From positions 1-64,000 of the forward strand of contig JAFDYJ010000016.1 of assembly GCA_018267515.1 (NCBI GenBank): a stretch of 64,000 bases of DNA, read 5' to 3'. Position 1 is the first letter of the stretch. Every line of letters begins with the position of its first letter. The DNA comes from Bacteroidota bacterium (GTDB lineage Bacteria; Bacteroidota; Bacteroidia; Chitinophagales; Chitinophagaceae). Below are positions 3,306 to 62,085 of the stretch, piece after piece. The notes under the pieces were generated by a model that saw nothing but the letters and a program-made list of their open reading frames with translations, had not been told where the DNA came from and did not search any database. Both the position numbers and the translations under genes were made by a program.

Positions 3306-6263
3306 ATGCAACGAACAGTCTTTATTCTTGCATACTTTCTTTTTTGTGCTAATTGTTTTGCGCAACAATATCCTTTTGTTTATTACACCCCAAAGGATGG
3401 CCTTGTAAACAGCAGGGTAAAGAGTATCAGGCAGGATAGCCGGGGATTCATCTATTTCATTACACGGGGAGGGTTGAGCATTTATGACGGAGCAAGATTT
3501 ATCAATTACTCCTCTCAAAACGGGTTGGTAAAGGATGTAGTTAATGATATAATTGAGATCACCCCCGATTCATTATTGGTAGCTACTAATGTGGACACAT
3601 TGAATACCCTGGTTAACGGTAAAACAGGAATTTTTAAAACAGCAGATAACTTTTGCCCGGTGATCAACCGTTTCTATAAGAGCAAAAGTGGAAGTTATTA
3701 TGCTGCGGCCGATGAAGGATTGTTTCTTCTATCGGGTAATAAGTTTGTAAAAATTCATTTAAGGGATAAAGAGAATAAAGAAACAGGCCGGTATCTTGAA
3801 AGAATAATAGAATGGAAACATTTTATGTTGCTGATTCCATGGAATTCATCGTTGAAGGAAAAACTGATCCTTTATGATACCCTAAAAAAGAAAGTAGTTG
3901 CAATCGAAACGAAGGAGGATGTTAATTCAATCTGCGAAGATATTTATGGCCGGTTATGGATTTCTTCAAATAACGGAGTCGGCTTCTTAGATACTTCAGC
4001 TTTAGAGGTAGAAAAAATCGTGATAACCCATCCTGGTAAAAGTTATCAGGCGCTATCCCATCTGAAAAATTCATTTTCAGTTTTTGATCACAATGACAAT
4101 AAATGGTTTTTTAATAAAACAAGTATTCACAGGTTCACCGGAGAAGTTGAATCTCAAACTATTTCTTCCAGCCAGGGATTGAATGTAAAAAACATCACGA
4201 ACCTATTTATTGACAGGGAAGGGATTTTATGGATTGCAACCGATGGATTTGGTGTTGCAAAACTGACAAATTCCGGCGTTGAATTATTGAATTTTTTGAA
4301 TCAGGCACCTGCTGTTGTTACCGCAATTGCCCGGGACGGGGATTTTACATGGATTGCAAACAGTGCCGACCACCGTATTTACAAGGTGTACAAAAATTCT
4401 GTCACCTCTTTCAGGCTTCCCTCACCCCGGGTGACGATAACAAATATTTACAGCTACAATGAAAAACTTTACCTGGAGACATCAAATAAACTGCTTTGTA
4501 TTGCCAATAAAAATTTCCCTGCTTCTTATCAACATCCGGAATTAATCTTTTCAGAACCAAATATAAGTTTAGGCAATGCCGTTATTGACCCGTTTGGAAA
4601 TATTATTATCCAGATCAATAAAGAAGATCTATCATTCTATACGTATGTGATCAGCGGCAAGAAAGTGATTTACAAATTTGCAAATAGTTCAATCGGAGAT
4701 CAGGCTACGCTGGACAAAGCAGGACGGTTATGGCTGATTACACGAAACGGTCAGCTTTTGGTATTTACCATACATCCGGAATCAGCATCTCAATACCTTC
4801 AACTTCAAAAGGATTATACAAAAGAACTTCCTAACCTCAATCCCCGTTCCATCCTAACAGATAAAATGAATAACGCCTGGATCGGCACCAGGTATCGGGG
4901 CATTGTATTCCTAAAGATGAATAACCTTAATATTGATTCAGTCATTCAGTTCAACTCATCCAATGGGCTAACAGATAATTTTATTTACACTCTTACCTGC
5001 GACAGTTCCGGAAATATTTGGGCCGGTACACAAACGGGGTTGGATAAACTGACCCTAAAGAATCAGCATTACATCATTGGAAATATAAGTAAGAACAACG
5101 ACTATTTCCAACCCATTAATAAAATCATAGTAACAGCAACTAACCAGGTATGGGCTTTATCATCGGAAGGAATAGTATTGAAGATCGCTTCCTCCTTATT
5201 AAATCCCGCTGTTATGCCACCACATCTATACATGAGAGAAATGAAAGTAAACAATCAGCCATTTCCTCTTTCAACTGCTCATTTTTCTTCCCCTCAGAAC
5301 AATTTTACTTTCAGCTTTGCGGCGCCTTCTTTTTGGGATGAACGATCCATTCTTTACAGTTATTTGCTGGAAGGAAGCGGGAATCCTATTTGGAGTGAAC
5401 CTTCCAATCAATCCATATTCAATTTTATTAATCTCCCTCCCGCCTCTTATACGCTAAAAGTGAAATGTATTTTTCCCGAAGAAAGATATGCTTCACAAAG
5501 CACCAGTTTTTCATTTGTTATAGATCCTCCCTGGTGGCAAACCTGGTGGTTCAGAACAGGAATTGGGATACTAGGGATTGCGATAATGGCTGCATCTCTC
5601 CACTTTTATTATAACAGGAAATTAGAGAAAGAAAAAGCAATATTGGAAAAGCAGCAGGCAATAGAAAAAGAAAGAACAAGAATTGCTACAGATATGCATG
5701 ATGATCTTGGCGCCGGGCTTTCAAGAATAAAATTTTTAAGTGAAACAATCGGTATCAAAAAACAAAAAGGACAGCCTTTTGAAGAAGACATTAATAAAAT
5801 CCGTGATTATACTCACGAAATGATTGACAAAATGGGGGAAATTGTTTGGGCGTTGAATGAAAAAAATGATTCATTGAGTGATTTACTTTCTTATACCCGT
5901 TCCTATGCTGTAGAATACCTTTCGCAAAACGGAATCAGGTGTTCCATTACAGCCCCGGACCAATTTCCCCAACTATTCGTAAGCGGAGAATTCCGTCGCA
6001 ATATTTTTCTTTCCGTGAAAGAGGCCTTGCACAACGTGGTGAAACATGCACAAGCTAACCATGTAGTAATAAAAATTACTGTAATTAAACAACTTGATAT
6101 ATATATCGGAGATGATGGAATTGGTTTTGACAAAAAAAATATCCGTCCTTTTAGTAATGGAATTTTCAATATGGAAAAAAGAATAAAGGAAATTGGAGGA
6201 AATTTATCAATAAGCAATGAAAAGGGAACCAGGGTTCATTTCACGGTTCCGATGGAAGTCTAA
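3306..6263 (+). CDS. Two-component sensor histidine kinase with beta-propeller sensor
   Basis: 985 residues. Order: signal peptide (1-19), a long periplasmic seven-bladed-type two-component propeller region (about 20-650, with repeated G-x-x-WIAT/WIGT/WAGT-x-x-G motifs), a Y_Y_Y domain (about 660-745), one membrane helix (about 749-770), a short coiled coil (KLEKEKAILEKQQAIEKERTR), a HisKA_3 dimerisation domain with His798 in DMHDDLG, and a HATPase domain with N-box Asn910 and G1 box DDGIG near 936. This is the HPK7-type architecture that pairs with NarL/FixJ regulators, matching the next gene. Unlike the hybrid SusCD sensors of Bacteroides it has no receiver or AraC domain. Its TAA stop is the first codon of the promoter that drives the regulator. 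The ligand cannot be told from sequence. Confidence 0.93.
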   Translation: MQRTVFILAYFLFCANCFAQQYPFVYYTPKDGLVNSRVKSIRQDSRGFIYFITRGGLSIYDGARFINYSSQNGLVKDVVNDIIEITPDSLLVATNVDTLNTLVNGKTGIFKTADNFCPVINRFYKSKSGSYYAAADEGLFLLSGNKFVKIHLRDKENKETGRYLERIIEWKHFMLLIPWNSSLKEKLILYDTLKKKVVAIETKEDVNSICEDIYGRLWISSNNGVGFLDTSALEVEKIVITHPGKSYQALSHLKNSFSVFDHNDNKWFFNKTSIHRFTGEVESQTISSSQGLNVKNITNLFIDREGILWIATDGFGVAKLTNSGVELLNFLNQAPAVVTAIARDGDFTWIANSADHRIYKVYKNSVTSFRLPSPRVTITNIYSYNEKLYLETSNKLLCIANKNFPASYQHPELIFSEPNISLGNAVIDPFGNIIIQINKEDLSFYTYVISGKKVIYKFANSSIGDQATLDKAGRLWLITRNGQLLVFTIHPESASQYLQLQKDYTKELPNLNPRSILTDKMNNAWIGTRYRGIVFLKMNNLNIDSVIQFNSSNGLTDNFIYTLTCDSSGNIWAGTQTGLDKLTLKNQHYIIGNISKNNDYFQPINKIIVTATNQVWALSSEGIVLKIASSLLNPAVMPPHLYMREMKVNNQPFPLSTAHFSSPQNNFTFSFAAPSFWDERSILYSYLLEGSGNPIWSEPSNQSIFNFINLPPASYTLKVKCIFPEERYASQSTSFSFVIDPPWWQTWWFRTGIGILGIAIMAASLHFYYNRKLEKEKAILEKQQAIEKERTRIATDMHDDLGAGLSRIKFLSETIGIKKQKGQPFEEDINKIRDYTHEMIDKMGEIVWALNEKNDSLSDLLSYTRSYAVEYLSQNGIRCSITAPDQFPQLFVSGEFRRNIFLSVKEALHNVVKHAQANHVVIKITVIKQLDIYIGDDGIGFDKKNIRPFSNGIFNMEKRIKEIGGNLSISNEKGTRVHFTVPMEV

Positions 6264-6305
6264 CTTTTGTTCTATTGCTCACCCTGATTCAAAAGAATAT
6301 TTTCG
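6261..6305 (+). promoter_or_regulatory. Island motif copy 1: promoter of the response regulator
   Basis: TAACTTTTGTTCTATTG at 6261-6277, then 20 bp, then TATTTTCG at 6298-6305, a one-mismatch form of the Bacteroidota -7 box TANNTTTG. The box ends 6 bp before the regulator's ATG, so the transcript would be nearly leaderless. The motif starts on the kinase stop codon. The same layout recurs at 6983, 11947 and 15990. I read the 17-mer as an activator site overlapping the -33 element. Confidence 0.65.
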
Positions 6306-6311
6306 AGCCAC

Positions 6312-6938
6312 ATGAGTATAAAACTGATTATCGTTGAAGACCTGGAAGAAGTAAGAAACGGGCTTAAGAATTTCATTGAGCTTAGCAGTGATTTTAAAGT
6401 ATTGGATACCTATGCTACCGCCGAAGAAGCATTGGATGGTATTCCAGAATTGAAACCTGATATTGTAATCATGGATATCAATCTGCCGGGCATGAATGGT
6501 ATTGAATGTATCCGGCAGGTAAAAAATAAAAATCTTTCCACCCAGTTTATGATGTTCACTGTTTATGAAAATGATGAAAAAGTTTTTGAAGCGTTGAAAG
6601 CCGGGGCTTCCGGTTACTTATTGAAAAATACTGGCCTGGTTCAGTTAATTGAAGCCCTAAAAGAATTACACAATGGCGGAAGCCCGATGAGTTCCAATAT
6701 CGCAAGGAAACTAGTTACCATTTTCAGGGAGCAAAACAAAACCAGGGTGGTTGAGACGTTAAGCCAAAGAGAAAATGAAATACTTCAATTGCTTTCAAAA
6801 GGATTGCTGTATAAAGAAATTGCCGATCAACTTCATATCAGTACGGCAACTGTCCGGCAACATATCCACAGGATTTACGAAAAACTGCATGTCCAAAACC
6901 GGACAGAAGCTATTAATAAAGCTTTCAGGAAAAATTAG
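6312..6938 (+). CDS. NarL/FixJ-family response regulator
   Basis: 208 residues. The receiver domain occupies about 1-120 with acidic pocket Glu9-Asp10, phospho-acceptor Asp55 in IVIMDINLPG, switch Thr near MMFTVYEND, and Lys in FEALKAGASGYLLKN. A LuxR-type helix-turn-helix follows (about 144-204: LSQRENEILQLLSKG, then IADQLHISTATVRQHIHRIYEKL). It lies 48 bp after the propeller kinase and is surely its partner. A motif copy at 6261-6305 gives it its own promoter, so it may be expressed apart from the kinase and control itself. It closely resembles the orphan regulator at 61432-62085. Inferred role: transcription activator of the secreted-protein island. Confidence 0.93.
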   Translation: MSIKLIIVEDLEEVRNGLKNFIELSSDFKVLDTYATAEEALDGIPELKPDIVIMDINLPGMNGIECIRQVKNKNLSTQFMMFTVYENDEKVFEALKAGASGYLLKNTGLVQLIEALKELHNGGSPMSSNIARKLVTIFREQNKTRVVETLSQRENEILQLLSKGLLYKEIADQLHISTATVRQHIHRIYEKLHVQNRTEAINKAFRKN

Positions 6939-6982
6939 GCTTCGCTATTTCTGTCACTATATTTTCAACAAATTCAGAACGA

Positions 6983-7027
6983 TAACTTTTGTTCTATTGT
7001 CAGGGCTAATGCTACCATTTACATTTA
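6983..7027 (+). promoter_or_regulatory. Island motif copy 2: promoter of the TPR protein gene
   Basis: An exact TAACTTTTGTTCTATTG at 6983-6999, 20 bp spacer, and TACATTTA at 7020-7027 (TANNTTTG with a final A). It lies 15 bp before the ATG at 7043. Identity of the 17-mer to copies 1 and 5, and the constant spacing, argue for a functional regulated promoter. Confidence 0.65.
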
Positions 7028-7042
7028 TTGGGAAAAACAGAT

Positions 7043-9124
7043 ATGAAAAAGCGATTTTTAATTTATTCAATTGCTGCTATACTAATATTTCCTCCTCTTT
7101 GTCTCTTTTCGCAACCTACTCCAAAGACCCGGGAAGAGATAGAAGCTTATATGAAAGTATTGAAGAAAAAGGCAGACTCGTTACAGGCAGCAATGAAGAA
7201 AAAAAATAATAATGGGAAAACAAGGAATTTATCTGACACTAACAAAAAATCCCTGGTTTCAAAAAAAACAAAAAACATTGAAGAGCAAAATCTTCCTGAA
7301 TTCGATTCCATAAAAGCCAGAAGCCTCCCTAAAAAGACCTTTACTCCTGCAGAACTCAATTCCTATCTTACCAATCTCTATAAAGAATTAAGCAGGAAAT
7401 TCCCTGCAGATGCAGTGGCTTCAGCAAACTCCATTGCACAGAAGTTAAATAACAGCCCTGTAAAATTAGAAGCAGCCGCATTGCACGCCTGGCAAAACGG
7501 TGCGGATGAAGAGTCCATTCTACTTATTGTAAAAGGTGCTGCTAACGGTGGCGACGGATTGGTGCTCACCAATGCCGGAGGTATTTTAGATATAAATGAC
7601 CTCAGCGAAAAAGCAATTCCTATTTTAAGAACTGTAACCAGCTATAGTCCCCGTAATGTAATTGCACTTAATAATCTTGGCCAGGCTTATACTGCATTGG
7701 GCATGCGGGATTCGGCCATGATTTATTTTAGTCGCTGTTTAAGTCTATCTCCCCAACATCCGGAAGCGAATAATACAGCAGGCTATATTGAATTAAAAAA
7801 GGGAAATAAGGAAAAAGCCCAATCCTATTTTGAAAATTCTATCCGGGGAAGTTTTAATCTTGCCGCCGCTATCGGTTTGTCCATCATTTTTAAAGATGAT
7901 AAATCAAAATTAAAAATAGCGCATCTCTTAAAACCCAAAATAAAAAAACCGGAGTACTTCAACCAGTTTAAGTATAATAACCTGCCACGACAATGCCTGA
8001 ATGTAGGTGAAGCTGCGACGGTGAGAGATGAATTTAATGCATTTAATAAAATGATGGACAAAGAGAGAAGAAAGTTCATTTTATTGGCAAAGGAAGCGGA
8101 AGAATCAATGGGTAAAAACTGGGCAGCTGATTTAAATAAGAAAACAATGGATGCCATATCGCAGGGAAAGAGCTACATGAAACCGTTCCAGGCAATGGGA
8201 AGTATTGTAGAAGCTGAACTTGGCTTAGGTTATCGTGAAGACAAGGCCGGCCTTGAAAAATTCAATAAAGAAAACCGGGAACAATATGAAAAGCTGGAAA
8301 AAGAATTCAAGGCTGCAATGGAACAATTAGCAAGATCTACAGGTGGGGATCTTTGCCACAAGGAAAATGAATTGAAGAATAAATTCCTACCCGTGTTTGC
8401 GCAGTTGAACCAGGAATTGCAGAGTCGTAACATGCTCATAGAAAATAAATACATTGACGATTTACTTTACTGGTGCTACTTCAGCGCTTATGACAATAAT
8501 GATTATCGTCATCAATTCTACACTCATGCTAACAGTTATCTCAGCCAGGTAGAATACCTGGCCCAGGTATATATATTAGAGCCTTGTAAAGAAACTGAGC
8601 CCAAAGAAATTGAACAACCACAAGCGGGTGAGCTAAAAGAATTTGATTGTCCCGCCAGTTTACAATTATCTCTTGTAGTGGGCAAACTAAATGTGGATTG
8701 TGAAAAAATTTCTTTCAAAGCAGGTGAAGGGTTGGTATTTAAATATGAAAAACGTTTTACAGGAAAACGGCAATCTACTATCAGCATTGGCGCCGGAGGT
8801 GGTGTAGATCTGACACAGAAATTTGGGCCAATAAAAGCAGGGTTGGAAGCCGGCATGGATATGTCTGTGTATTTCACATTTGATAAGTCGGGTAATTGCA
8901 CCGATGCCGGAATGAAATTTAGCGCTTATCGTGGAATGGGTGTTGATTTTTCAGCAGGCCAACGACTAAAGATTGATAGAAATCTCGGTTATATGGAGGA
9001 GAAAATTGGCTGGCGCTTTGGTGTTAATTCAGGAGTCAGTTTCGATGTACCTGATAATCCATTTATGAAAGAAAAACCGGAAGTGCCCATTAATAAAAAT
9101 GTAAAAATTTACCAGGGACAATGA
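7043..9124 (+). CDS. Secreted TPR-repeat protein with glycine-rich C-terminal domain
   Basis: I start the gene at the ATG at 7043, which begins a normal signal peptide (MKKRFLIYSIAA, cleavage near LFSQ); the TTG 15 bp upstream adds a charged stub before it. About 693 residues. Residues 30-90 are lysine-rich and probably helical or disordered. Tetratricopeptide-like helices follow (about 180-290, for example NVIALNNLGQAYTALGMRD and PEANNTAGYIELKKGNKEKAQ). A charged helical middle leads to a C-terminal part (about 560-693) rich in Gly and aromatic residues (SIGAGGGVDLTQKFG, LEAGMDMSVYFTF) that reads like beta strands, perhaps a small barrel or surface-anchored sheet. It has its own copy of the island motif. 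A scaffold role at the envelope is my inference; the C-terminal domain is unknown to me. Confidence 0.75.
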   Translation: MKKRFLIYSIAAILIFPPLCLFSQPTPKTREEIEAYMKVLKKKADSLQAAMKKKNNNGKTRNLSDTNKKSLVSKKTKNIEEQNLPEFDSIKARSLPKKTFTPAELNSYLTNLYKELSRKFPADAVASANSIAQKLNNSPVKLEAAALHAWQNGADEESILLIVKGAANGGDGLVLTNAGGILDINDLSEKAIPILRTVTSYSPRNVIALNNLGQAYTALGMRDSAMIYFSRCLSLSPQHPEANNTAGYIELKKGNKEKAQSYFENSIRGSFNLAAAIGLSIIFKDDKSKLKIAHLLKPKIKKPEYFNQFKYNNLPRQCLNVGEAATVRDEFNAFNKMMDKERRKFILLAKEAEESMGKNWAADLNKKTMDAISQGKSYMKPFQAMGSIVEAELGLGYREDKAGLEKFNKENREQYEKLEKEFKAAMEQLARSTGGDLCHKENELKNKFLPVFAQLNQELQSRNMLIENKYIDDLLYWCYFSAYDNNDYRHQFYTHANSYLSQVEYLAQVYILEPCKETEPKEIEQPQAGELKEFDCPASLQLSLVVGKLNVDCEKISFKAGEGLVFKYEKRFTGKRQSTISIGAGGGVDLTQKFGPIKAGLEAGMDMSVYFTFDKSGNCTDAGMKFSAYRGMGVDFSAGQRLKIDRNLGYMEEKIGWRFGVNSGVSFDVPDNPFMKEKPEVPINKNVKIYQGQ

Positions 9125-9168
9125 AATGACTTCTCTCAGAAGAAGAAATATAAATTAAATGATGAGCC

Positions 9169-10227
9169 ATGAAACTCTACCAGTTTTTTATTCTCCCGTT
9201 CTTGTCAATGACTTGTTTTGCACAAGTATCCAGGTTGCCGGATGCAAAGCAAAAAGCATTTGATACCGATAAGGCAAAAATTTGCGGAGGCTGGGATTCT
9301 ATTTTCAGCAAGAAAGGCAAATGGAAGAAAAGCAAAGATGACCTTGCCTTTACCGACAAAACTTTTCCGGCCGGCCAATATAAGTATGTTAATACCCGGA
9401 TAGATAGTATCGCCGCCTTCCTGCAAGAGACAATTGAAGACCTTAGCGGTGTGGAAGCAAGATGGTACAGGGGCACAACAGGTAATGCTTACATCCCGGG
9501 TGGCCCGGTTCCTTATAGTTTAAACTGTGGGTTTTTTTCTTACTACTGCAACACCAACAGTAAAAAAATCTTGTTGTCCGAAGAAACCGGTCAATGGATT
9601 TATGTATTTGTAAACACACTTAACTGGTTTCTTGATAAAGGAGGCGAATGGGATATCAATAATGATGGCAAATTGAAAACGTTTTTTCAGCTCCCTCCTG
9701 TAAATGATACATGGAAGGATTACAGAGTATATGAACCGAAATATTTTTTGGGGGGTGCCACCAGATCTATCTCCAAAACTGTAATCATAGGCCGCAATGA
9801 AAAACTCCCCTGGCGTTCATTAACTCAACGACAATATCTCAACGGCCTTAAAAACGATTATCAAAAACAAATGAACAAACTGAAGGAAGGCTCAGGTTTT
9901 CACTCGGATTATCTAAAGAAACTTAATTATATAATTGATTACCTGGATCGCACTGATAACGAAATATTAGAGAAGCCGGCCATCATTGATCCTAAGGTCG
10001 GCGTTTGGGGGTTCAAAGGAAAATTTGGAAACGAAGCTGAAAAAGGATTCAGGCTTGTTCTCTTAACTGCAAACAAGATGTATTTTGACACCAGTCTTCC
10101 CCGGTATGCTCCACAACTCATCCAGGTTTTTTGGAAATATAATCCGACGGATACTGTGGCATTGCGGGTAACTAAACAATTTGAAGAAAACTTCCCCCTG
10201 GAAAAATTGAGGACGATGATTAAATAG
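9169..10227 (+). CDS. Secreted protein of unknown function (full-length paralogue of 2-808)
   Basis: 352 residues with a signal peptide (MKLYQFFILPFLSMTCFAQ). No domain recognised. The segment from about 205 on (LTQRQYLNGL, a charged helix, then LPRYAPQLIQVFWKY and ENFPLEKLRTMIK) matches the protein at the left edge of the window, and the N-terminal 200 residues are seen only here. That part carries two cysteines and a glycine- and proline-rich loop (YIPGGPVPYSLNCG). It follows the TPR gene by about 45 bp and precedes the second PsbP-like protein by 23 bp, so these three probably share a transcript. The pairing of this family with a PsbP-like neighbour is echoed at the left end of the window, which suggests that a block was duplicated. 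Confidence 0.72.
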   Translation: MKLYQFFILPFLSMTCFAQVSRLPDAKQKAFDTDKAKICGGWDSIFSKKGKWKKSKDDLAFTDKTFPAGQYKYVNTRIDSIAAFLQETIEDLSGVEARWYRGTTGNAYIPGGPVPYSLNCGFFSYYCNTNSKKILLSEETGQWIYVFVNTLNWFLDKGGEWDINNDGKLKTFFQLPPVNDTWKDYRVYEPKYFLGGATRSISKTVIIGRNEKLPWRSLTQRQYLNGLKNDYQKQMNKLKEGSGFHSDYLKKLNYIIDYLDRTDNEILEKPAIIDPKVGVWGFKGKFGNEAEKGFRLVLLTANKMYFDTSLPRYAPQLIQVFWKYNPTDTVALRVTKQFEENFPLEKLRTMIK

Positions 10228-10250
10228 TTATCCAACCTAAAGGTTTTCTT

Positions 10251-11651
10251 ATGAAAAAGATTTTCATTTTTTTAATAGTATTTCACTCTTCGTTGGACAC
10301 TCCGGCACAAACAGAAAAATTTGATATTGCTTCCTTTACTGCTCCCTTAGGTTGGCAGCGCATTGAGGCAAACGGTAATCTTTCTTTTTTGGATACTGCC
10401 ACAGTTAACGGGCTAACGAGCTTTTGCCAAATAACTTTATATCCATGCATCGAAAGCACAAGAAGTGCAAATAATAATTTTAAAACTGCATGGCAAAACC
10501 TGGTAACTATTCCGACGAAATCAAAAATCAAACCCGTTACGCAAACAGACAATACTCCTGACGGGTGGACATTAACAACAGGCACGGCAAATATCTCTTC
10601 AGGGGGACTGACCTACAAAACGATCGTGGCAAGCATTACCGGATTCGGAAAGACAATGAACGTACAGGTAAACACGGCAGGTGGAAACTACGCAGGTTCA
10701 ATTGAAAAATTTTTTAATGACCTGAACCTTGACAGTAAAGGTGTGGTGTCTTCCGGAAATACAAACTTGAACAAGAATAAAAATTCAGAAAATTTGAACG
10801 GAAATTTTTCTATAAATGACTATGAATTCGTAGCACCGGACAAATGGCAGTTGCAAAAAAACAAAGAATATATCTCGATGATAAATCCCCAGTCCGGTTG
10901 CACGATAAAGGTATTAGCGCCACAACCTTCATCGGGAAATTTAGAACAGGATGCAGAAGCCGTTTTTAATACGATGTACAGCGGGTGGAACTATCAAAAT
11001 AGTGGGAATAAAAAATTTACCCTGGTAACCGGTTTTTTGCCGAAAGGTCATGAGTTCTTTATGAAAGAAGCAAGCATGAGTGGTTATACTGCCGGTGGCC
11101 AATACAATCTGGAAGAAGGCAGCGCCATTGTAGTAAAGACAGGAAATAAGATTGTGATCATTTCCGTACGGCACAACAGCAGTATGATGGGGCATGATGA
11201 CTGCTACCGGAACTACAATACCTGGGCAAGGTTTTTTAACACATTTGGGGTCAGGCAGTTTTTCCAACCCGAAAGTGCCGAAGAAGACATCCCAAAAAGA
11301 ATTATCGGATTGTGGAATATAAATGCAACCGGAGTTGTGGCGGGAGAATATGTATTTGCTGCTAACGGGCATTATCAATTCGGAGGAGCTATTGGCACTT
11401 CCACCACCACATCTGACCTTTATTACAAATACATTTACAATACAGCATATTCATTTGAAGGCGATGGAACCTATTCCATATCCGGCCATGTTCTTACTCT
11501 CAATAAAAGCGGAAGTGCTGCAGAGCAGATACCAATAAGATTTGAAAAAGTAAATTTTGGAGGCACAGGATGGACAGACAGGATGTGGATGCTGAAAACT
11601 GATAGCATAGGCAAAAACCAGGTATGTTATGATAAGAGCAAAAAGGATTAA
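10251..11651 (+). CDS. PsbP-like secreted protein of unknown function (paralogue B)
   Basis: 466 residues with a signal peptide (cleavage near residue 19, PAQTEKF). Paralogue of 1986-3245: SFTAPLGWQ at the mature N-terminus. A second module of similar kind starts near residue 185 (DYEFVAPDKWQL), so this copy holds two tandem modules. A C-terminal beta-rich part (GLWNINATG, ANGHYQFGGA, DGTYSISGHVLTL) resembles a lipocalin-like fold. The last residues, GKNQVCYDKSKKD, recur in a vestige at 13814-13850. After its stop the same frame stays open for 54 codons (11652-11816) with protein-like composition, which could be decayed coding sequence. Function unknown. Confidence 0.72.
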   Translation: MKKIFIFLIVFHSSLDTPAQTEKFDIASFTAPLGWQRIEANGNLSFLDTATVNGLTSFCQITLYPCIESTRSANNNFKTAWQNLVTIPTKSKIKPVTQTDNTPDGWTLTTGTANISSGGLTYKTIVASITGFGKTMNVQVNTAGGNYAGSIEKFFNDLNLDSKGVVSSGNTNLNKNKNSENLNGNFSINDYEFVAPDKWQLQKNKEYISMINPQSGCTIKVLAPQPSSGNLEQDAEAVFNTMYSGWNYQNSGNKKFTLVTGFLPKGHEFFMKEASMSGYTAGGQYNLEEGSAIVVKTGNKIVIISVRHNSSMMGHDDCYRNYNTWARFFNTFGVRQFFQPESAEEDIPKRIIGLWNINATGVVAGEYVFAANGHYQFGGAIGTSTTTSDLYYKYIYNTAYSFEGDGTYSISGHVLTLNKSGSAAEQIPIRFEKVNFGGTGWTDRMWMLKTDSIGKNQVCYDKSKKD

Positions 11652-11885
11652 GAACTAAAAATTAAACTCATCTTCTATTATTATTTCATTGAAAAGTCTA
11701 TTGGAAGTACAATCGAAGGCGAGTATTATCAAAAGATTCTGAGAGTACCCGCAATCACTAATTCACAAAGACTGGTTTTCACTGACCCGCACCTTCCGGT
11801 AAAAAAGGTCAGATAGTTTGTTTTGACAACCTGCCTATTTCCATTTTAAAATAACGGAATGCAAAAGCTGTATGAATCAGCCGGC

Positions 11886-11930
11886 TAACTTTTGTTCTAT
11901 CATCAATACCCTGATAGTTGTATAAGTCAA
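11886..11930 (+). promoter_or_regulatory. Island motif copy 3, apparently degraded
   Basis: TAACTTTTGTTCTAT is exact at 11886-11900, but the last two positions differ and the box after 20 bp reads TAAGTCAA, keeping only TA and one T of TANNTTTG. It lies 61 bp upstream of copy 4. It is either a second activator site or an old promoter left by a duplication. Confidence 0.4.
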
Positions 11931-11946
11931 TAATGATAGCCATTGG

Positions 11947-11991
11947 TAACTTTAGTTCTATTGTTTTCAGGATACGGCTAAAGTAGTTTTG
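11947..11991 (+). promoter_or_regulatory. Island motif copy 4: promoter of the ZU5-fragment/spondin unit
   Basis: TAACTTTAGTTCTATTG at 11947-11963 (one mismatch), 20 bp, then TAGTTTTG at 11984-11991, a perfect TANNTTTG box. The leader to the ATG at 12029 is 37 bp. This is the best-formed -7 box of the set. Confidence 0.65.
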
Positions 11992-12028
11992 GATTTAGGT
12001 TTTTTTTCTAAACAATACAATTGGTTTT

Positions 12029-12274
12029 ATGAAAAAAAATATTTTCATCCTGCTTTCGGCCATCGGCTTTGTAATACTATTGAGTTGCAAAAAATCTCCA
12101 GAAGGAAATATCATACCTGAGCCGGATGCTCCCGGCGTAACCACTCATGTCGGCATCCTCGATGGAATCCCTGTTTCTAAAACCCTTGGCAGTGCCGGTG
12201 GTTCATTAATGTCGGCAGACGTTAAAATAGAATGTGCTACTGGAAAAAGAAAAAATGCTACACAAAGCATTTGA
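12029..12274 (+). pseudogene. Truncated ZU5-type lipoprotein, possible pseudogene
   Basis: 81 residues. It begins with a lipoprotein signal (MKKNIFILLSAIGFVILLSC, lipobox LLSC). Residues 50-70, VSKTLGSAGGSLMSADVKIE, match the start of the ZU5 domain in the protein at 13925-15316 (ITKEIGAAGGAIISDDGKIE). After KIE the match stops and a short unrelated tail leads to TGA, so over 90 per cent of a ZU5 domain is missing. It may still be translated, as promoter and signal peptide are intact and the spondin gene follows after 39 bp; it could then serve as a leader cistron. I favour a gene broken by deletion between two direct or paralogous copies. Confidence 0.6.
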
Positions 12275-12313
12275 AAAATCAAATAAAAAACTAAACAATT
12301 AAAAAAAACTAAA

Positions 12314-13609
12314 ATGAAAAAAGCAATTAAATTCAACTGGCTGTATATAGCCGCATTTGCACCCATGGCATTTATGTCGTGCAAGAAAAATCACTTTCAC
12401 ATACCTTCAAAGGATCATACCATTACGATCCAAAACGTATTGCAATCGAAACCGCTTGTGGAATCTGGAACCTTTCAGGGGCCGAATAAAGCAACTCTTC
12501 CCGGTGAAACAGCATCATTTACTTTCTCTGCTGCAAAAGGGCAGGCCGTAACCTTTGCTAGTATGTACGGCTGGTCCAATGATTTGTTTTTTGCGCCGGC
12601 AAACCCGGGAATCATGTTGTACGATGGTCAGGGAAATCCTGTTGAAGGCGATGTATCTTCTCAAATAAAGATTTGGGACAATGGTACCCGTATCAATCAA
12701 CAACCGGGTTCTTCTGTAGTACATCCGGGCACTGCGGAAACTACAGCTCAGAACATTTTGGAAGTGAATGGAACCGATGCCCAGGGTTATACTTATTTGC
12801 CCGCTTCTTCTCTCATGCATGTATCTCTCAAATACAATGGTAATTCTATATTTACTCTTACAATTGAAAATGTTTCAGGAGGTACAGCTAATCAAACACC
12901 ATTCAGCCCTGGTGTGTGGACTATTTCTTATGTCAACGGTGGAACCATGCTGATGCCTAATCCAATTTATGAGGCAGGAAAACCCAGCATGAACGGACTA
13001 ACTAACATTGCAGAGAAGGGAAACATTACGAACCTGGATACCTATCTCAAAAGCAATACCGGTATCTTCACACCATTGTCTCCTGTGCTGGTAGTCGTAT
13101 ATCATGGAATCTCCAACCCGATTTTCCGTGAAGGAGAAACAGATGAAGGACATGGCTTAACCAAATTTGCCCAAAAGGGTAATGCAAGCGATATCGCCGG
13201 TTATTTGAAAACCGTAAGAGGCGTAGATGCTGTATATGTTTTACCTGCAGCAAATACTATAAAACTGCTTCCTGCAATGAATGGAAATCCGGGTAGCAGT
13301 GTTTCACAGGAAATATCTCTGCATTTGGGCGATCATATTGCGTTTGCAACAATGTATGGATTATCCAACGACTGGTTCTTCGCCGGCGAAGGTGGTATGA
13401 ATCCTTCACCAAAAGGCGGAATCTACTTTCATGTAGGCTTGTACGATGATGGTACTGCCGTAGATCAATTTCCAGGTGCAGGCAACAGGCAGGCAGCATT
13501 CGGAGGTACACCTCAGGTAGAAAATAAACCGATAATGAAAGTGCCCAATCCTAACGCATTTACGACACTTCCGGATGTCAACGATATCGTGAAAGTAACA
13601 ATTGAATAA
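12314..13609 (+). CDS. Tandem spondin-domain lipoprotein
   Basis: 431 residues. A lipoprotein signal (AFMSC lipobox, Cys near residue 23) is followed by KK. Two spondin-like domains (Spond_N) follow. The first (about 35-185) has TITIQNV, a FASMYGWSNDLFFAP motif and a WDNGTRINQQPG segment. The second (about 305-431) has FATMYGLSNDWFFA and LYDDGTAVDQFPGAG. Between them, about 200-300, lies a linker with repeated IAEKGN / FAQKGN patterns. Bacterial spondin-domain proteins are usually secreted and poorly studied; the eukaryotic domain binds matrix components, and Asp/Glu-rich loops suggest metal binding. Expected place: anchored in the outer membrane. Upstream promoter is motif copy 4, shared with the fragment at 12029. 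Confidence 0.8.
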   Translation: MKKAIKFNWLYIAAFAPMAFMSCKKNHFHIPSKDHTITIQNVLQSKPLVESGTFQGPNKATLPGETASFTFSAAKGQAVTFASMYGWSNDLFFAPANPGIMLYDGQGNPVEGDVSSQIKIWDNGTRINQQPGSSVVHPGTAETTAQNILEVNGTDAQGYTYLPASSLMHVSLKYNGNSIFTLTIENVSGGTANQTPFSPGVWTISYVNGGTMLMPNPIYEAGKPSMNGLTNIAEKGNITNLDTYLKSNTGIFTPLSPVLVVVYHGISNPIFREGETDEGHGLTKFAQKGNASDIAGYLKTVRGVDAVYVLPAANTIKLLPAMNGNPGSSVSQEISLHLGDHIAFATMYGLSNDWFFAGEGGMNPSPKGGIYFHVGLYDDGTAVDQFPGAGNRQAAFGGTPQVENKPIMKVPNPNAFTTLPDVNDIVKVTIE

Positions 13610-13618
13610 TTTTTTTAA

Positions 13619-13644
13619 GATGCAACGGCTTAGGCCGTTGCATC
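13619..13644 (+). terminator. Perfect 11-bp hairpin after the spondin gene
   Basis: GATGCAACGGC (13619-13629), loop TTAG, GCCGTTGCATC (13634-13644). It starts 10 bp after the stop codon. There is no U-tract after the stem, so it may be a transcript-end stabiliser or processing site rather than a classical intrinsic terminator. Confidence 0.55.
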
Positions 13645-13742
13645 TCATCCGCATTTCGTGTCTGCATGAAACGAAGTCTCTCTGCAAATAATAATGGCAT
13701 AATCAGCTTTAATTCTTATAGAAATATTTGTTGAATGCATAA

Positions 13743-13850
13743 GAGTTTATTTGCAAAGTGGAAGAACTGGTTCAGGAAGACACGAACAAGGGAGCTTGGG
13801 ACGGCATGGGCAAAAACGAAGTATGTTATGATAAGAGCAAGCAAGAATAA
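13743..13850 (+). pseudogene. Vestigial C-terminus of a PsbP-like paralogue
   Basis: An open frame without a start codon. Its last residues, GKNEVCYDKSKQE before TAA at 13848, match the end of the 466-residue protein (GKNQVCYDKSKKD before TAA at 11649). At the DNA level, tatgttatgataagagcaa is identical in both. Upstream of residue G the match fades. I infer that a third copy of the PsbP-like gene once stood here. The rest of the 315-bp gap from 13610 shows only the hairpin at 13619 and an A/T-rich leader before 13925. Confidence 0.65.
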
Positions 13851-13924
13851 CCAGGAAGATGAAGGTTTTTTTTCTCAATAAAACTTACTGAAGACTCAAA
13901 ATTTATGAGCATAAATTATCTATT

Positions 13925-15316
13925 ATGAAAAAAATATTTTTTGCAATTTTCCTGATCCATTCAGCCCTATTACTGCAGGCGCAGGATGATGGCCCGAAAC
14001 CGGGATCTGATTCTGTTGAAGTGAATTTGATCCGCCTGCCCGACTCTACAGCTATTGCCATCCCCAATGGAAAATTAATAACTAAAGAAATCGGGGCTGC
14101 CGGAGGAGCAATCATTTCGGATGATGGTAAAATAGAATTAATTTTTCCTGAGGGAGCATTACTAAAAAACACTTCAGTAAGCATTCAACCTACAGAAAAT
14201 TTACTACCTAATGGAAATAAAGCTTACCATTTTGAGCCATCAGGTATGCAGTTTTTAAAACCGGTGCAGGTCATTTTTCATTACAGTGATGAAGAAGCTG
14301 AAACCTGTCCGCCGGAATTCAAGTTTATGGCTTTGCAGGATCATAACGGGAAATGGGAGTATATGGATTATGAAGATTGGGACAGTGCTTCCAAATCGCT
14401 GAAAGGATACACCAAGCATTTTTCAGCTTTTGTAGATGGAAATATAGTTGAGCTAAACGATACCGAATTAACTCTTAAAGTAGGACAGACTTATATGTTT
14501 TTTTTAGATGTAGTACACCCACCACCACCTACAGAACCCGGCGAAGAAGAGCTTGCCTATCTTCCACAAGGGGTAAAGAAAGTAAATAGAGGAGCAGCCT
14601 GGAAGGTAAACGGGAAAGTGGGTGGAAGTGTAAAACATGGGACGATATCCCCAATCCAGGGTGAGCTAATCCAGGCAATCTATAAGGCACCCCCGGTATT
14701 AACATCCGATCCTATTAAGGTAAATTTATCACTCTATACAACAAAGATCCGTGAAGTAGTACAGCATAGTAGAAAGGCCCGAGGCTGGAAAGGAATAACT
14801 CGTATACCAACAACAACCCTCCAGGCAACCTTTACTTGTAAGGTGAAACTTTACGATCAGTACAAGGTCTCCGTAATTTTCAATAAGGATGATGGATCGA
14901 GTTTATTAATTGACAGTGCCAACTTTATTGTAACTGTTTATAAGGATAAAGGAGAAATAACAGAGATAATCAATTACCCTCCTTTCGTAAAGATGGCAGA
15001 TCCTTATGGATTGGAATCAAAAGTTATTATTGATAAATCCTGTGTTGGCATTATTAATATCTCTGCTACTGATATTAAGAAATATAATTTGTCAAGAGAT
15101 AATCCTCCGGAAATCCTTTTCGAGATGCGTAGCAAGAAAGTCTTGATATATAAATTTCAGTATATCGCAAAAAATAAGTATTTCAAAACCACCCCGGTTA
15201 CAGATATTATACTCGATTCTGAGCCAGTGGAACTCAATTTTATTGCAAACGGACATAGGCAAAGTGTTTCCTATTTTCCAAACGCTTACAAGATCATAGT
15301 AGATCCGTTTAGATGA
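13925..15316 (+). CDS. ZU5-domain secreted protein
   Basis: 463 residues, signal peptide (MKKIFFAIFLIHSALLLQAQ). Residues 50-150 fit a ZU5 domain: KEIGAAGGAI, then FPEGALLKNTSVSIQP, then FEPSGMQFLKPVQVIFHY. ZU5 is a beta-sandwich found in ankyrin and netrin receptors and in many secreted bacterial proteins. A segment near 160-190 (KWEYMDYEDWDSASKSLKGYTKHFSAFVDG) is the usual follow-on in bacterial ZU5 proteins. The remaining 270 residues are beta-rich without known motifs. It has no clear copy of the island motif upstream. Partner of the truncated ZU5 lipoprotein at 12029. Likely surface or periplasmic; ligand unknown. Confidence 0.8.
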   Translation: MKKIFFAIFLIHSALLLQAQDDGPKPGSDSVEVNLIRLPDSTAIAIPNGKLITKEIGAAGGAIISDDGKIELIFPEGALLKNTSVSIQPTENLLPNGNKAYHFEPSGMQFLKPVQVIFHYSDEEAETCPPEFKFMALQDHNGKWEYMDYEDWDSASKSLKGYTKHFSAFVDGNIVELNDTELTLKVGQTYMFFLDVVHPPPPTEPGEEELAYLPQGVKKVNRGAAWKVNGKVGGSVKHGTISPIQGELIQAIYKAPPVLTSDPIKVNLSLYTTKIREVVQHSRKARGWKGITRIPTTTLQATFTCKVKLYDQYKVSVIFNKDDGSSLLIDSANFIVTVYKDKGEITEIINYPPFVKMADPYGLESKVIIDKSCVGIINISATDIKKYNLSRDNPPEILFEMRSKKVLIYKFQYIAKNKYFKTTPVTDIILDSEPVELNFIANGHRQSVSYFPNAYKIIVDPFR

Positions 15317-15430
15317 AAATATAGTTAGTAAAAAATAACAATAGCATCTGGAATAAAATAGTTTGCCATGGTTTAACTTCTGAGTATTTCATTTTCAAAT
15401 ACAAAATATTATCCAATCAAAAAACTGTAT

Positions 15431-15985
15431 ATGAGAGCTATAAGAATCATAATTGTTCTATTCATCTTCATTCCATTTTATTCGGGTGCACAAAAAATTA
15501 TTTTCACTGAAAATTTCCAGGACGAAAAAATGAATGAATATTGGCAAATAGTAACCGGGAACTGGAAAATCTGTTCTGTTGACGATATGCGGATAGCGCC
15601 GGCAGAAGGAGGTTATCAATATGTATTGTGTTCGGGCAGCAGAGGTGATGCAGGAGAACAGATCGTACGGCTTTTCGTTGACCTGCCTGATTCAATTAAA
15701 AAATATAAAAAAATTACGCTTAGTTTTTATTACTATTTCATTGCCAATGTGGCAAAGGCAAATGTGGAAACAGAGTTTTATCAAAAAGAAATGAAAGACG
15801 GTAGCAGGGGAAAATTATGGTCCGCCTCTCTTCCTTACGTTAAAGGACGATGGTCAAGGATTAAGAGAACATTTACTATACCCAAAAACAGCAACCAGTT
15901 TAGAATTGTATTTTCCGGGATATCGCCGTCATTACAAAAGAATTCCATTGTGTGCTTTGACAATATTGTCATTGCTGCATTATAA
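15431..15985 (+). CDS. Small secreted jelly-roll-like protein
   Basis: 184 residues with a signal peptide ending near SGAQK (about residue 20). The mature part starts IIFTENFQDEKMNEYWQIVTGNW and ends with VCFDNIVI, the pattern of carbohydrate-binding-like or concanavalin-like jelly rolls in secreted Bacteroidota proteins, where a final FDNI/V strand is common. No catalytic motif. It stands alone between the ZU5 gene and the next motif-driven unit. A glycan- or surface-binding role is inference only. Confidence 0.6.
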   Translation: MRAIRIIIVLFIFIPFYSGAQKIIFTENFQDEKMNEYWQIVTGNWKICSVDDMRIAPAEGGYQYVLCSGSRGDAGEQIVRLFVDLPDSIKKYKKITLSFYYYFIANVAKANVETEFYQKEMKDGSRGKLWSASLPYVKGRWSRIKRTFTIPKNSNQFRIVFSGISPSLQKNSIVCFDNIVIAAL

Positions 15986-15989
15986 TGCC

Positions 15990-16034
15990 TAACTTTTGTT
16001 CTATTGTTCATTTTCTTATTTGCCAATAAGTTTA
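15990..16034 (+). promoter_or_regulatory. Island motif copy 5: promoter of the 16053-18119 unit
   Basis: Exact TAACTTTTGTTCTATTG at 15990-16006, 20 bp, then TAAGTTTA at 16027-16034. It lies 18 bp before the ATG at 16053, and begins 5 bp after the upstream stop codon. It would drive the three closely spaced genes that follow. Confidence 0.65.
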
Positions 16035-16052: not shown

Positions 16053-16760
16053 ATGAAGAAAATATTTTTGGTGCCTGGGCTGACTTTGTGGGCAATTCTT
16101 TGTACGTATCAAACCGGCAGAGCACAAACTATTGTCAAAAAAGGTGCAAAGTATGATACCATTATCCGCAAACATGTTACAAATCCTCCGGTAAAAAAGA
16201 AACCGAAACCAAAAGTTGTTGTCACTCCTCCCCCGCCAAAAGATACCGTTAAAGTGGTAGTAATTCCTACACCTGAGTTTGTTAACCAGCCCTATTATTA
16301 CGACAAGGACAATAATAAACTTATTAAACTGGAGAATGCCGCTGCACAAATGATTACCAAAAAGAAAACATTGGGATTGAAAGGGGCAAAACAAACTCTT
16401 ACAATGGACAATCTGTCGTCAAAGATTCGTTTTACTTCAAAGAAAGATATCGGCTTCATTATAAAAACAAGTGGTGATGTGATTGACCTTACTTCCTATA
16501 TTAAGCTCTACCGTTTTGTTCCCAATGATGAGAAGCGGGAAGTGACCATCAATTCAAAAGAAGGATTATTGGCAGACAAAGATGAAGCCAAAGGAGAACT
16601 GATCAGTTTTAGTGTAAAACCTATTTCGCCGGATAACTACTTAATACAACTTTCCCATCAGTTGGATGCAGGAGAATATGGTTTTGTATGGGTTAAAAAT
16701 ATGGAGTTGAAAGAATTTACCGTTTTTGCTTTTGGCATTGACTGGAAAAGCAGCGATTGA
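16053..16760 (+). CDS. Secreted protein of unknown function (paralogue of 17490-18119)
   Basis: Start taken at ATG 16053, which opens a signal peptide (MKKIFLVPGLTLWAILC, cleavage near GRAQ); an upstream TTG lies inside the promoter motif. 235 residues. A Pro/Lys-rich stretch (about 40-75: PPVKKKPKPKVVVTPPPPKD) probably crosses the peptidoglycan or spaces the domain. The domain (about 85-235) shares YYYDKDNNKLIKLE, a SKIRFTSKKDIGFIIKTSG strand pair, and LDAGEYGFVWVKN...FAFGID with the 223-residue protein downstream. The LPKGEYAF/FAFGVD ending suggests an Ig-like or bacterial pili-associated beta sandwich. First gene of the unit driven by motif copy 5. Confidence 0.72.
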   Translation: MKKIFLVPGLTLWAILCTYQTGRAQTIVKKGAKYDTIIRKHVTNPPVKKKPKPKVVVTPPPPKDTVKVVVIPTPEFVNQPYYYDKDNNKLIKLENAAAQMITKKKTLGLKGAKQTLTMDNLSSKIRFTSKKDIGFIIKTSGDVIDLTSYIKLYRFVPNDEKREVTINSKEGLLADKDEAKGELISFSVKPISPDNYLIQLSHQLDAGEYGFVWVKNMELKEFTVFAFGIDWKSSD

Positions 16761-16861: not shown

Positions 16862-17488
16862 ATGAAAAAGTTACTCCTTATCATGCTATGCTGCTTGCCT
16901 GCAATAGTATTTGCCCAACCAGGTATTGGTATTAAGGCGGGGCTCAACTTTGCTAATGTCAGCAAAGCATCTTCTATCAACAACAGTAATCGTTCCGGGT
17001 TTTTATTTGGTGTGTTTCTTGCACCTCCCAATACAGGGATTATGAGTTACCGCACTGAACTTATATACTCGAAGCAGGGATATAATTTTCAATCGGGCAA
17101 TAACACAGGCAATGTAAACCTGGACTATATATTAATGCCCCAGTTAATGGGCATTAACATTACAAAATATGTGCAGATTCAATTTGGCGCCCAGATGGCT
17201 TTTCTTATCAATGCAAAAGCGGATAGTACAAATACGGGAGGCAGCTCGGGGCCATACAGTTCCATCATGAGCTACTACAACAAATTTGATTATGGTTTCG
17301 CCGCCGGTGCAGAAATTCATCCTGTAGCCGGATTATTAATTGGTGCCAGATATAATATCAGCCTGGGAAAATTGTATAAAGACATTGGATCAGGACAAAT
17401 GCCATCTTTCACTGCTGCAGATGCCAAGAATAATGTAGTACAAATTTTTGCCGGCTGGACTTTTGGAAATAACCCGAAAAAGAAATAG
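16862..17488 (+). CDS. Outer-membrane beta-barrel protein (PorT/OMP_b-brl_2 type)
   Basis: Start taken at ATG 16862 (signal peptide MKKLLLIMLCCLPAIVFAQ); the longer TTG-start frame adds an unlikely 35 residues. 208 residues. GIGIKAGLNFANVS is the classic first strand of Bacteroidota PorT-like small barrels. Alternating aromatic strands follow, ending with IFAGWTFG before a KKK tail. Family barrels have about eight strands and often no known ligand. It lies between the two Ig-like paralogues, 1 bp before the third gene of the unit, so the three are probably co-expressed. Confidence 0.82.
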   Translation: MKKLLLIMLCCLPAIVFAQPGIGIKAGLNFANVSKASSINNSNRSGFLFGVFLAPPNTGIMSYRTELIYSKQGYNFQSGNNTGNVNLDYILMPQLMGINITKYVQIQFGAQMAFLINAKADSTNTGGSSGPYSSIMSYYNKFDYGFAAGAEIHPVAGLLIGARYNISLGKLYKDIGSGQMPSFTAADAKNNVVQIFAGWTFGNNPKKK

Positions 17489-61355: not shown

Positions 61356-61431
61356 AAAACTGCCGATTTGATTTAAGTCAATACCGGAAAGTAGTATTGT
61401 ATATATCTGCCGGATAACGGAATTTTGTATT

Positions 61432-62085
61432 ATGAAAGAAATTTCAGTTTGTATCGTGGATGACAATGAAGCCCTGCGAAGTGCTTTGGAAGAAATCATT
61501 AATATGTCACAGGGATTTATCTGCCTGGGCTCTATGGCCAACATTGAGGATGCGATTCAAAGACTTCCAAAATTAAATCCTGACGTTGTACTAATGGATA
61601 TAGACCTGGGAGGAGAAGAAACAGGCATTGATTGTGTCGGGGAGTTAAAGCCCATAATGACTTCAACAAATTTTATGATGTGTACGGTTTATGAAGAGGA
61701 GGACAAAATATTTGAAGCATTAAAAGCAGGTGCCAGTGGCTATATTTTAAAAAAAACAGCTCCGGCCAAGCTTCTTGAATCCATCCGGGAACTGAATGAA
61801 GGCGGTTCACCCATGAGTAGCCAGATAGCCCGAAAAGTTGTGGCAGCATTTCAAAAAAAAGAACCGCAGCAGGCCATAGCTGCTACCAATAATCCTGAAA
61901 TCAATATTCTTTCACACAGAGAAAAGGAGATTCTTGAATTGCTCTCAAAAGGATTAATGTATAAGGAAATTGCAGCGAAACTGAATATCAGCCAGGAGAC
62001 AATACGTAAACATGCCTATCATATCTACGAAAAATTGCATGTTGGTAACCGGGTGGAAGCCATCAACAAATTCTGGGGAAGATAA
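61432..62085 (+). CDS. Orphan NarL/FixJ response regulator
   Basis: 217 residues. Receiver with Asp10-Asp11 and phospho-acceptor Asp56 in VVLMDIDLGG, Thr in MMCTVYEEE, Lys in LKAGASGYILKK, then a LuxR-type HTH (about 152-213: LSHREKEILELLSKG, IAAKLNISQETIRKHAYHIYEKLHVGNRVEAI). Closely related to the regulator at 6312 (shared GLMYKEIA/GLLYKEIA, EALKAGASGY, SSQIARKVV/SSNIARKLV), but no kinase is adjacent. It may answer a distant kinase. The inverted repeat 77 bp upstream may be its site. Confidence 0.92.
   Translation: MKEISVCIVDDNEALRSALEEIINMSQGFICLGSMANIEDAIQRLPKLNPDVVLMDIDLGGEETGIDCVGELKPIMTSTNFMMCTVYEEEDKIFEALKAGASGYILKKTAPAKLLESIRELNEGGSPMSSQIARKVVAAFQKKEPQQAIAATNNPEINILSHREKEILELLSKGLMYKEIAAKLNISQETIRKHAYHIYEKLHVGNRVEAINKFWGR

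Follow-up and report, generated by a model that had tools for sequence, protein, structure and literature searches.

NarL binds inverted heptamers of the form TACYYMT. In the Bacteroidota, separate pairs of a Reg_prop histidine kinase and a NarL-type response regulator are common, and their propeller type of sensor is shared by the hybrid two-component systems (HTCS) of Bacteroides. In HTCS, kinase and regulator are combined in one protein (PMC11253607). Promoters read by sigma-A in this phylum have TTTG at about -33 and TAnnTTTG at -7 (PMC9723704, PMC7366714). Among the papers listed by our literature search, with subscription journals mostly outside its scope, none described DNA sites for separate Reg_prop/NarL-type pairs. 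Here we describe candidates for such sites in the first 64,000 nt of contig JAFDYJ010000016.1 (assembly GCA_018267515.1, family Chitinophagaceae), hereafter the window. It carries a sensor kinase gene (3306..6263), a NarL/FixJ-type response regulator gene (6312..6938) and a 17-nt motif, the 17-mer TAACTTTTGTTCTATTG, which stands before the regulator and before neighbouring operons. We consider it likely that the 17-mer is the dimer site of this regulator joined to an abutting TATTG -33 element, and that the regulator activates its own gene together with the neighbouring operons for envelope proteins. In kind, this is a self-regulated two-component system of the NarL type, with the control itself predicted from sequence.

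The 17-mer was searched in the window at up to three mismatches, with shuffled copies of the window as the control. On the + strand it is found exactly at 6261..6277 (site 1), 6983..6999 (site 2) and 15990..16006 (site 4), with one mismatch at 11947..11963 (site 3b, TAACTTTAGTTCTATTG) and with two at 11886..11902 (site 3a, TAACTTTTGTTCTATCA). These are the positions given in a preliminary description of this DNA, and nothing further was found in the window at this threshold. Shuffled windows gave a mean of 0.48 matches and at most 3, and five were reached in 0 of 100. All five copies lie outside predicted genes, save that the first three bases of site 1 are the stop codon of the kinase gene. 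Exactly 20 bp past every copy, a TA begins. Behind sites 1, 2, 3b and 4 are the -7 boxes TATTTTCG (6298..6305, the regulator promoter), TACATTTA (7020..7027), TAGTTTTG (11984..11991) and TAAGTTTA (16027..16034), all on the + strand and at the starts reported before; the first (TATTTTC) is one mismatch off TANNTTT. The sigma-A plan of the Bacteroidota is thus recognizable, with TTG about 20 bp upstream of a TAnnTTTG-type box from which the final G is often absent. The modules had been called identical over 45 bp, which holds for their layout and not for their sequence, the 20-bp spacers varying freely.

A genome-wide scan, as the preliminary description had proposed, was run on the source assembly (2.81 Mb, 82.6% complete) with the pattern TAACNTTNGTNMTATTG-N20-TANNTT. 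It gave five exact matches and none at one or two mismatches; the reversed pattern gave three at up to two mismatches. Four of the five are those in the window. The fifth, TAACGTTTGTTCTATTG-N20-TACTTTTA at C44:27455, begins in a stop codon and precedes a second NarL-type regulator, 61% identical to that at 6312-6938 and with a Reg_prop/HisKA_3 kinase upstream. Since the module also stands between a paralogous kinase and regulator on contig C44, the genome has two systems, A (the window) and B (C44). The site is present in the regulator's own and neighbouring promoters and rare elsewhere in the genome, as expected for autoregulation, and the regulon would be small and local. The bare 17-mer at up to three mismatches was not enriched (34 genome matches against 42 for the reversed control), so that past one or two mismatches it is uninformative alone. 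Distant matches of this sort (L007-L030) were discarded as no better than the reversed control.

Across 394 genomes of the family, the exact module has 55 matches in 24 genomes, against a single match of the reversed pattern. Among the loci examined, 47 of 48 distinct modules lie outside predicted genes. A regulator follows in 19 cases, 18 of which overlap the stop codon of the upstream open reading frame (ORF). The other first genes belong to the family of the window's gene at 16053 (7), to outer-membrane barrels (5), to ZU5-like proteins (4) and to TPR proteins (2), leaving 11 modules before other or unassigned genes, some of them at contig ends. Those matches in G020, G021 and G031 whose surroundings were examined have no regulator cluster beside them and were taken as chance. 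Paralogous genes in the clusters could suggest that the sites are chance or copied intergenic DNA, functionless relics of duplication. We give this next to no credence: site and box are conserved but the spacers are not, the module recurs in other genera and also in metagenome-assembled genomes (MAGs) of Ferruginibacter and Pedobacter, and its matches in the family far outnumber those of the control.

We read the 17-mer as two joined parts: an inverted repeat, TAAC-N4-GTTM, which is probably the site of a regulator dimer, and the TATTG of a -33 element into which it runs. We searched 27 loci for T[AG]AC-N4-GT[TC]A outside genes, with no filter on the downstream sequence. Besides the dyads inside 17-mers and their opposite-strand readings, 12 stand-alone dyads were found. 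Nine of them belong to system B and precede, by exactly 22 bp (about two helical turns), a degenerate proximal site in which a TTG-N20-TANNTT-like box is kept (L061 4548, L064 11559, L065 16146, L067, L079 1007, L188 4340, two in L190, and L191). Most of the nine read TAACATTCGTTA, and several are flanked as in CTATAAC...GTTATAG. In one further case, from system A (L185), the dyad precedes such a proximal site by 21 bp, and two are unpaired (L184 7216 and window 18365). Because dyads occur alone 21-22 bp upstream, the dyad and the -33 TTG are separable parts.

This separability bears on the other binder that had been suggested, a special sigma factor, for which the 17-mer would be the -33 element of a dedicated factor of the extracytoplasmic function (ECF) type. 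The near-constant 20-bp spacing would fit such a factor, as would the near-constant sequence in system A. However, the -7 boxes match the general TAnnTTTG form of the phylum (PMC9723704, PMC7366714), the TAAC part is found by itself, as a dyad that precedes promoters by 22 bp, and sister regulators pair a different dyad with the same TTG/-7 layout. No sigma gene was found among the 19 ORFs of 11-24622 that were scanned with Pfam, the rest of the genome not having been searched, and the Pfam matches to sigma-70 region 4 fall in the helix-turn-helix (HTH) of the regulator. The suggestion found no support, and we regard a dedicated sigma factor as very improbable.

Class II activators usually sit at the -33 element. 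Such a layout is found here, with the site abutting or overlapping -33 and a spacer of 19-20 bp to the -7 box in most promoters; of 15 regulator promoters selected by eye as motif-bearing, 14 have a spacing of 20 and the remaining one a spacing of 19. Activation by the regulator is favoured over repression because the dyad ends at the -33 element at a near-constant distance from the -7 box. The kinase at 3306-6263 would sense a signal and phosphorylate the regulator, which would then bind as a dimer beside -33 and recruit polymerase to its own promoter and to those of three local operons. Since the site sits between kinase and regulator, this loop would raise the regulator and not the kinase. 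If instead the regulator represses, binding would cover -33 and shut its own gene and the operons, and in most sites the right arm of the dyad does touch the TTG of -33. Polymerase contact is the better fit to the near-fixed 20-bp spacing and to the tandem arrangement in which a dyad precedes a weakened proximal site by 22 bp; the consensus final G is also absent from many -7 boxes, as would be expected of activator-dependent promoters. We consider repression unlikely.

Which protein binds the site is a separate matter. The regulator at 6312-6938 has the domains of the NarL/FixJ family (Pfam: Response_reg, 2.3e-26; GerE, 1.4e-18) and the recognition helix TVRQHIH. In this helix, R182, Q183 and H186 align, respectively, with K188, V189 and K192 of NarL, its base-contact residues. 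At an E-value cut-off of 1e-60, the regulator has 72 matches in the family, spread over 51 of 147 genomes, and from a profile search of genome contigs with the regulator alignment the best 80 of 568 loci were kept. Proteins identical over their first 200 residues were counted once, which left 157 regulators; of these, 154 have at least 85 nt upstream. A site of the TAAC class (type I) lies within 85 nt in 26 of the 32 regulators of at least 58% identity, in 0 of 75 at 50-58% and in 1 of 47 below 50%, and a site of a TACC class (type II, TACCNNWWW...GTATT) in 0 of 32, 31 of 75 and 0 of 47, respectively, counts that describe and do not test, since both patterns were written after the data had been inspected. 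Shuffled upstream regions gave a mean below 0.1 sites per identity group.

The class of the site follows the class of the helix. Among the 154 regulators, those with Q183 and H186 have a type I site in 27 of 31 cases, one of which also fits a broad type II pattern, and those with K183 and Y186 have a type II site by this broader pattern in 41 of 49 and a type I site in none. The remaining 74 regulators have no type II site, and type I in two (H183 and I183). Regulators with Q183 and G or C186 carry CAAAATASCTAT-N21-TA (4 of 4); this group, nested in the type I clade, is one joint switch of helix and site. In its four members, L163, L164, L075 and L076, CAAAATASCTAT-N21-TANNTT stands at the same upstream place as the type I site. 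S183/R186 regulators have TAACAC..GTKA in 4 of 10 cases. Members of this NarL-type class carry TAACACTTTTTTGTGA or TAACACTTTTTTGTTA upstream (L071 14313, i.e. G000:C7:78313, L198, L200 and L204). A single case in system B of G003 (L064 10867-11600) has an H183 regulator and an upstream dyad reading TGACGTTCGTCA instead of TAACATTCGTTA, possibly a one-residue change of specificity. A search for the best inverted repeat upstream of regulators with neither type I nor type II sites returned mostly unrelated repeats.

Sites within one cluster also resemble each other, differing at 1.65 of 12 positions as against 2.78 when permuted (64 sites in 25 clusters; 0 of 2000 permutations as low), although within a genus this likeness may reflect recent descent. 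Co-location alone does not name the binder, and a different cellular regulator could bind the motif, with the adjacent regulator gene merely one of its targets. We hold this to be quite improbable: one genus holds two or three paralogous clusters, in each of which the site has a variant form of its own, and the site class tracks the helix class of the adjacent regulator. Conservation, the stand-alone dyads, the likeness within clusters and the match with helix class all speak for the earlier proposal that the local NarL-type regulator binds at the 17-mer, in overlap with the -33 element.

Several points weigh against a dimer site of this regulator at an activated promoter, besides the reach of the dyad into the -33 TTG, the possible effect of descent within genera and the exceptions in the helix classes. 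The tree splits the Q/H and K/Y classes with 100/95 support, so that the match of helix and site lies mainly between clades and does not represent many independent switches; descent confounds it. The strict rule misses a type I site in 6 of the 32 close homologs: in L072 3833 by one letter, in L163, L164, L075 and L076 with CAAAATASCTAT in its place, and in L162, which is near a contig end. Within the window, site 3a, 61 bp upstream of site 3b, is weak, with a degraded -33 part, and its TA at +20 falls within TAAGTCAA at 11923, a poor -7 box.

The preliminary description had placed the regulator in its own regulon, with its promoter over the stop codon of the kinase, and this layout proved common to relatives, in which the type I site lies between the kinase and regulator genes and usually over the upstream stop codon. 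Placing the -7 box at -12 to -5 (PMC9723704), transcription is predicted to start at about 6310, 7032, 11996 and 16039, with leaders 2, 11, 33 and 14 nt long. In the 26 type I cases the start codon of the regulator follows the -7 box by 4-10 nt; of the 31 type II cases, 23 have this distance at exactly 4 nt. The regulator mRNAs are therefore predicted to be leaderless or nearly so. Leaderless mRNAs make up 5.5% in Flavobacterium psychrophilum (PMC9723704), and leaders shorter than 10 nt about 3.7% in Bacteroides thetaiotaomicron (PMC7366714).

To survey targets, a site matrix built from the 26 regulator promoters only was run over 28 loci, its training sites being among the matches. At a score of at least 14.9 there are 63 matches, 62 of them outside predicted genes and 57 with a gene that starts on the same strand at most 260 bp away. 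The first genes after the sites number 52 and comprise 24 regulators, six members of the 16053 family, five ZU5-like proteins, five barrels, three pairs and six singles; most of the non-regulator proteins start with a signal sequence, as judged by eye. Kinases upstream of type I regulators have Reg_prop and HisKA_3 in 10 of 10 cases scanned with Pfam. Two genomes of the same genus, G001 and G003, have module clusters, on one contig in each, and G003 has a third paralogous system, C. Both systems A and B are present in G015, of another genus. In G002 (L189 16896), a barrel gene keeps an A-like site, TAACTTTAGTACTATTG, and no regulator of the A or B type is among the three regulator matches of that genome; this site may be an orphan target or under system C.

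The genes of the cluster in the window all lie on the + strand. The kinase (3306..6263) combines a Reg_prop propeller with Y_Y_Y, HisKA_3 and HATPase_c domains (Pfam). The first gene after site 2 encodes a TPR protein (7043..9124, Pfam), whose ortholog stands behind a site in G001, and the ORFs at 9169-10227 and 10251-11651 probably share its operon. Behind site 3 are a short ORF of 81 aa (12029..12274), an ORF without any Pfam match (12314..13609), for which the earlier label of spondin finds no Pfam support, a ZU5-like ORF scoring under the Pfam cut-off (13925..15316) and an ORF with a MAM domain (15431..15985, Pfam). The short ORF, which has kept its promoter module, seems to be a truncated copy of the ZU5-like protein at 13925-15316; relatives carry longer ZU5-like genes (446-477 aa) behind sites. 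Site 4 is followed by an uncharacterized protein that, as judged by eye, carries a signal sequence (16053..16760) and an outer-membrane beta-barrel, OMP_b-brl_2 (16862..17488, Pfam). Members of the 16053 family follow a site in six clusters, including those of the Ferruginibacter (L074) and Pedobacter (L082) MAGs, and relatives of the barrel have a site of their own in five other clusters. Directly after the cluster, the protein at 18571-21999 has a Por_Secre_tail (the type IX secretion tail) and 12 DUF5650 stretches, and its gene has no site.

The window also holds a member of the sister branch, a second NarL-type response regulator of the K183/Y186 class (61432..62085, +), with no kinase gene directly adjoining. 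Before it are a type II site, TACCGGAAAGTAGTATTG (61382..61399, +), and a -7 box, GAATTTTG (61420, +). Type II promoters follow the plan TACCAC-N3-GTGGTA, directly TTG, N19-20 and a [TGC]AnnTTTG-like box. The pattern TACCNNWWWGTRGTATTG has 81 matches in 40 of 117 genomes of the family, against 7 when reversed. Sixty-nine distinct type II sites were examined, of which 12 overlap a predicted ORF. A gene could be assigned to 52 of them: regulators (10), ssb (6), radC (3), recA (2), Rpe (2), comM (1) and others (28). Pfam confirms the three RadC, both RecA and the two SSB proteins scanned. Unrelated genes, e.g. those for Rpe and IMPDH, are also preceded by type II sites. In the window's own genome, ssb has such a site ahead of it (C3:52558), and comM is preceded by one with a single mismatch (C1:60223). 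TACC dyads before regulator, ssb, radC, comM or comEC genes were seen in L261, L262, L311, L314-L316, L318, L322, L324, L329, L333 and L334.

A matrix built from type II regulator promoters was then compared between genomes with such a regulator and genomes with none at the 1e-60 cut-off. Before comM it reaches 15 in 5 of 20 usable regulator-bearing genomes and in 0 of 7 without the regulator, one of which reaches 11. In four of the five comM sites the TTG side points away from comM, so that the dyad alone is present and not the promoter plan. Random 300-bp windows of comM loci, which may include true sites, reach 15 in 13 of 580. Before comEC the matrix reaches 11 in 5 of 22 regulator-bearing genomes (15 in three) and in 0 of 13 without, and these sites are in promoter orientation, with N20 and TACCTTT-like boxes near the start codon. 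Three or four of ssb, radC, comM and comEC are marked in G003, G030, G118 and G111 (comEC weakly in G111), and two in G000 and G116, where the comEC sites of G116 are weak. For dprA, one of eight loci has type II matches (L342, 3046-3067), which lie behind the DprA match and not before it. Since most other regulator-bearing genomes lack comM and comEC sites, a DNA-uptake regulon would be limited to a subset.

The regulator at 61432 is a candidate regulator of DNA uptake (competence). No control of DNA uptake in this bacterial group was described among the matches listed by our literature search. With confidence somewhat below even, we propose that a single promoter grammar (a dyad of the regulator's own, TTG at -33, 20 bp, -7 box and leaderless start) and a two-residue code (Q183/H186 for TAAC, K183/Y186 for TACC) are common to NarL-type regulators of the Chitinophagaceae and of related Bacteroidota, and that the K/Y branch, with the regulator at 61432 in it, is the missing master regulator of natural DNA uptake in this group, acting on ssb, radC, comM and comEC. 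If the grammar is true, a regulator's own promoter would tell which targets it has, and the family of switches would become readable from sequence; each kinase/regulator pair could be tested with one reporter, and the two-residue code by swaps. The type II branch offers a concrete candidate for the control of DNA uptake.

Compared with known systems, the proteins belong with the NarL/FixJ family by their receiver and GerE HTH domains and their dyad-shaped sites, and their nearest solved relatives are VraR, NarL and DevR. The type II dyad TACCAC-N3-GTGGTA resembles the NarL heptamers. Unlike known NarL/FixJ systems, the helix here is TV[RK]QHIH or TVRKHVY, and the dyad lies inside the near-leaderless promoter of the regulator at a near-constant distance, for type I at the junction of kinase and regulator. 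HTCS differ in that here kinase and regulator are separate and the output is of the NarL type. Like sigma-A promoters of the Bacteroidota, these have TTG about 20 bp ahead of a TANNTTT box, whereas a regulator-like dyad is fused to -33 and the -7 box often ends without its G. In competence regulons described elsewhere, CRP-S sites are found at radC, ssb, comM and dprA in H. parasuis, and the late-competence genes of pneumococcus include comEC, radC, ssbB and recA, while pneumococcal ComM is an unrelated immunity protein (PMC5809987, PMC6560143). The type II sites before ssb, radC, recA, comM and comEC in some genomes recall these regulons of Haemophilus (CRP-S) and pneumococcus (ComX), but the predicted regulator is NarL-type, and comM and comEC sites are missing from most genomes that carry it. 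As far as our searches show, the fused promoter grammar common to the family and the match between helix and site are new within the literature searched.

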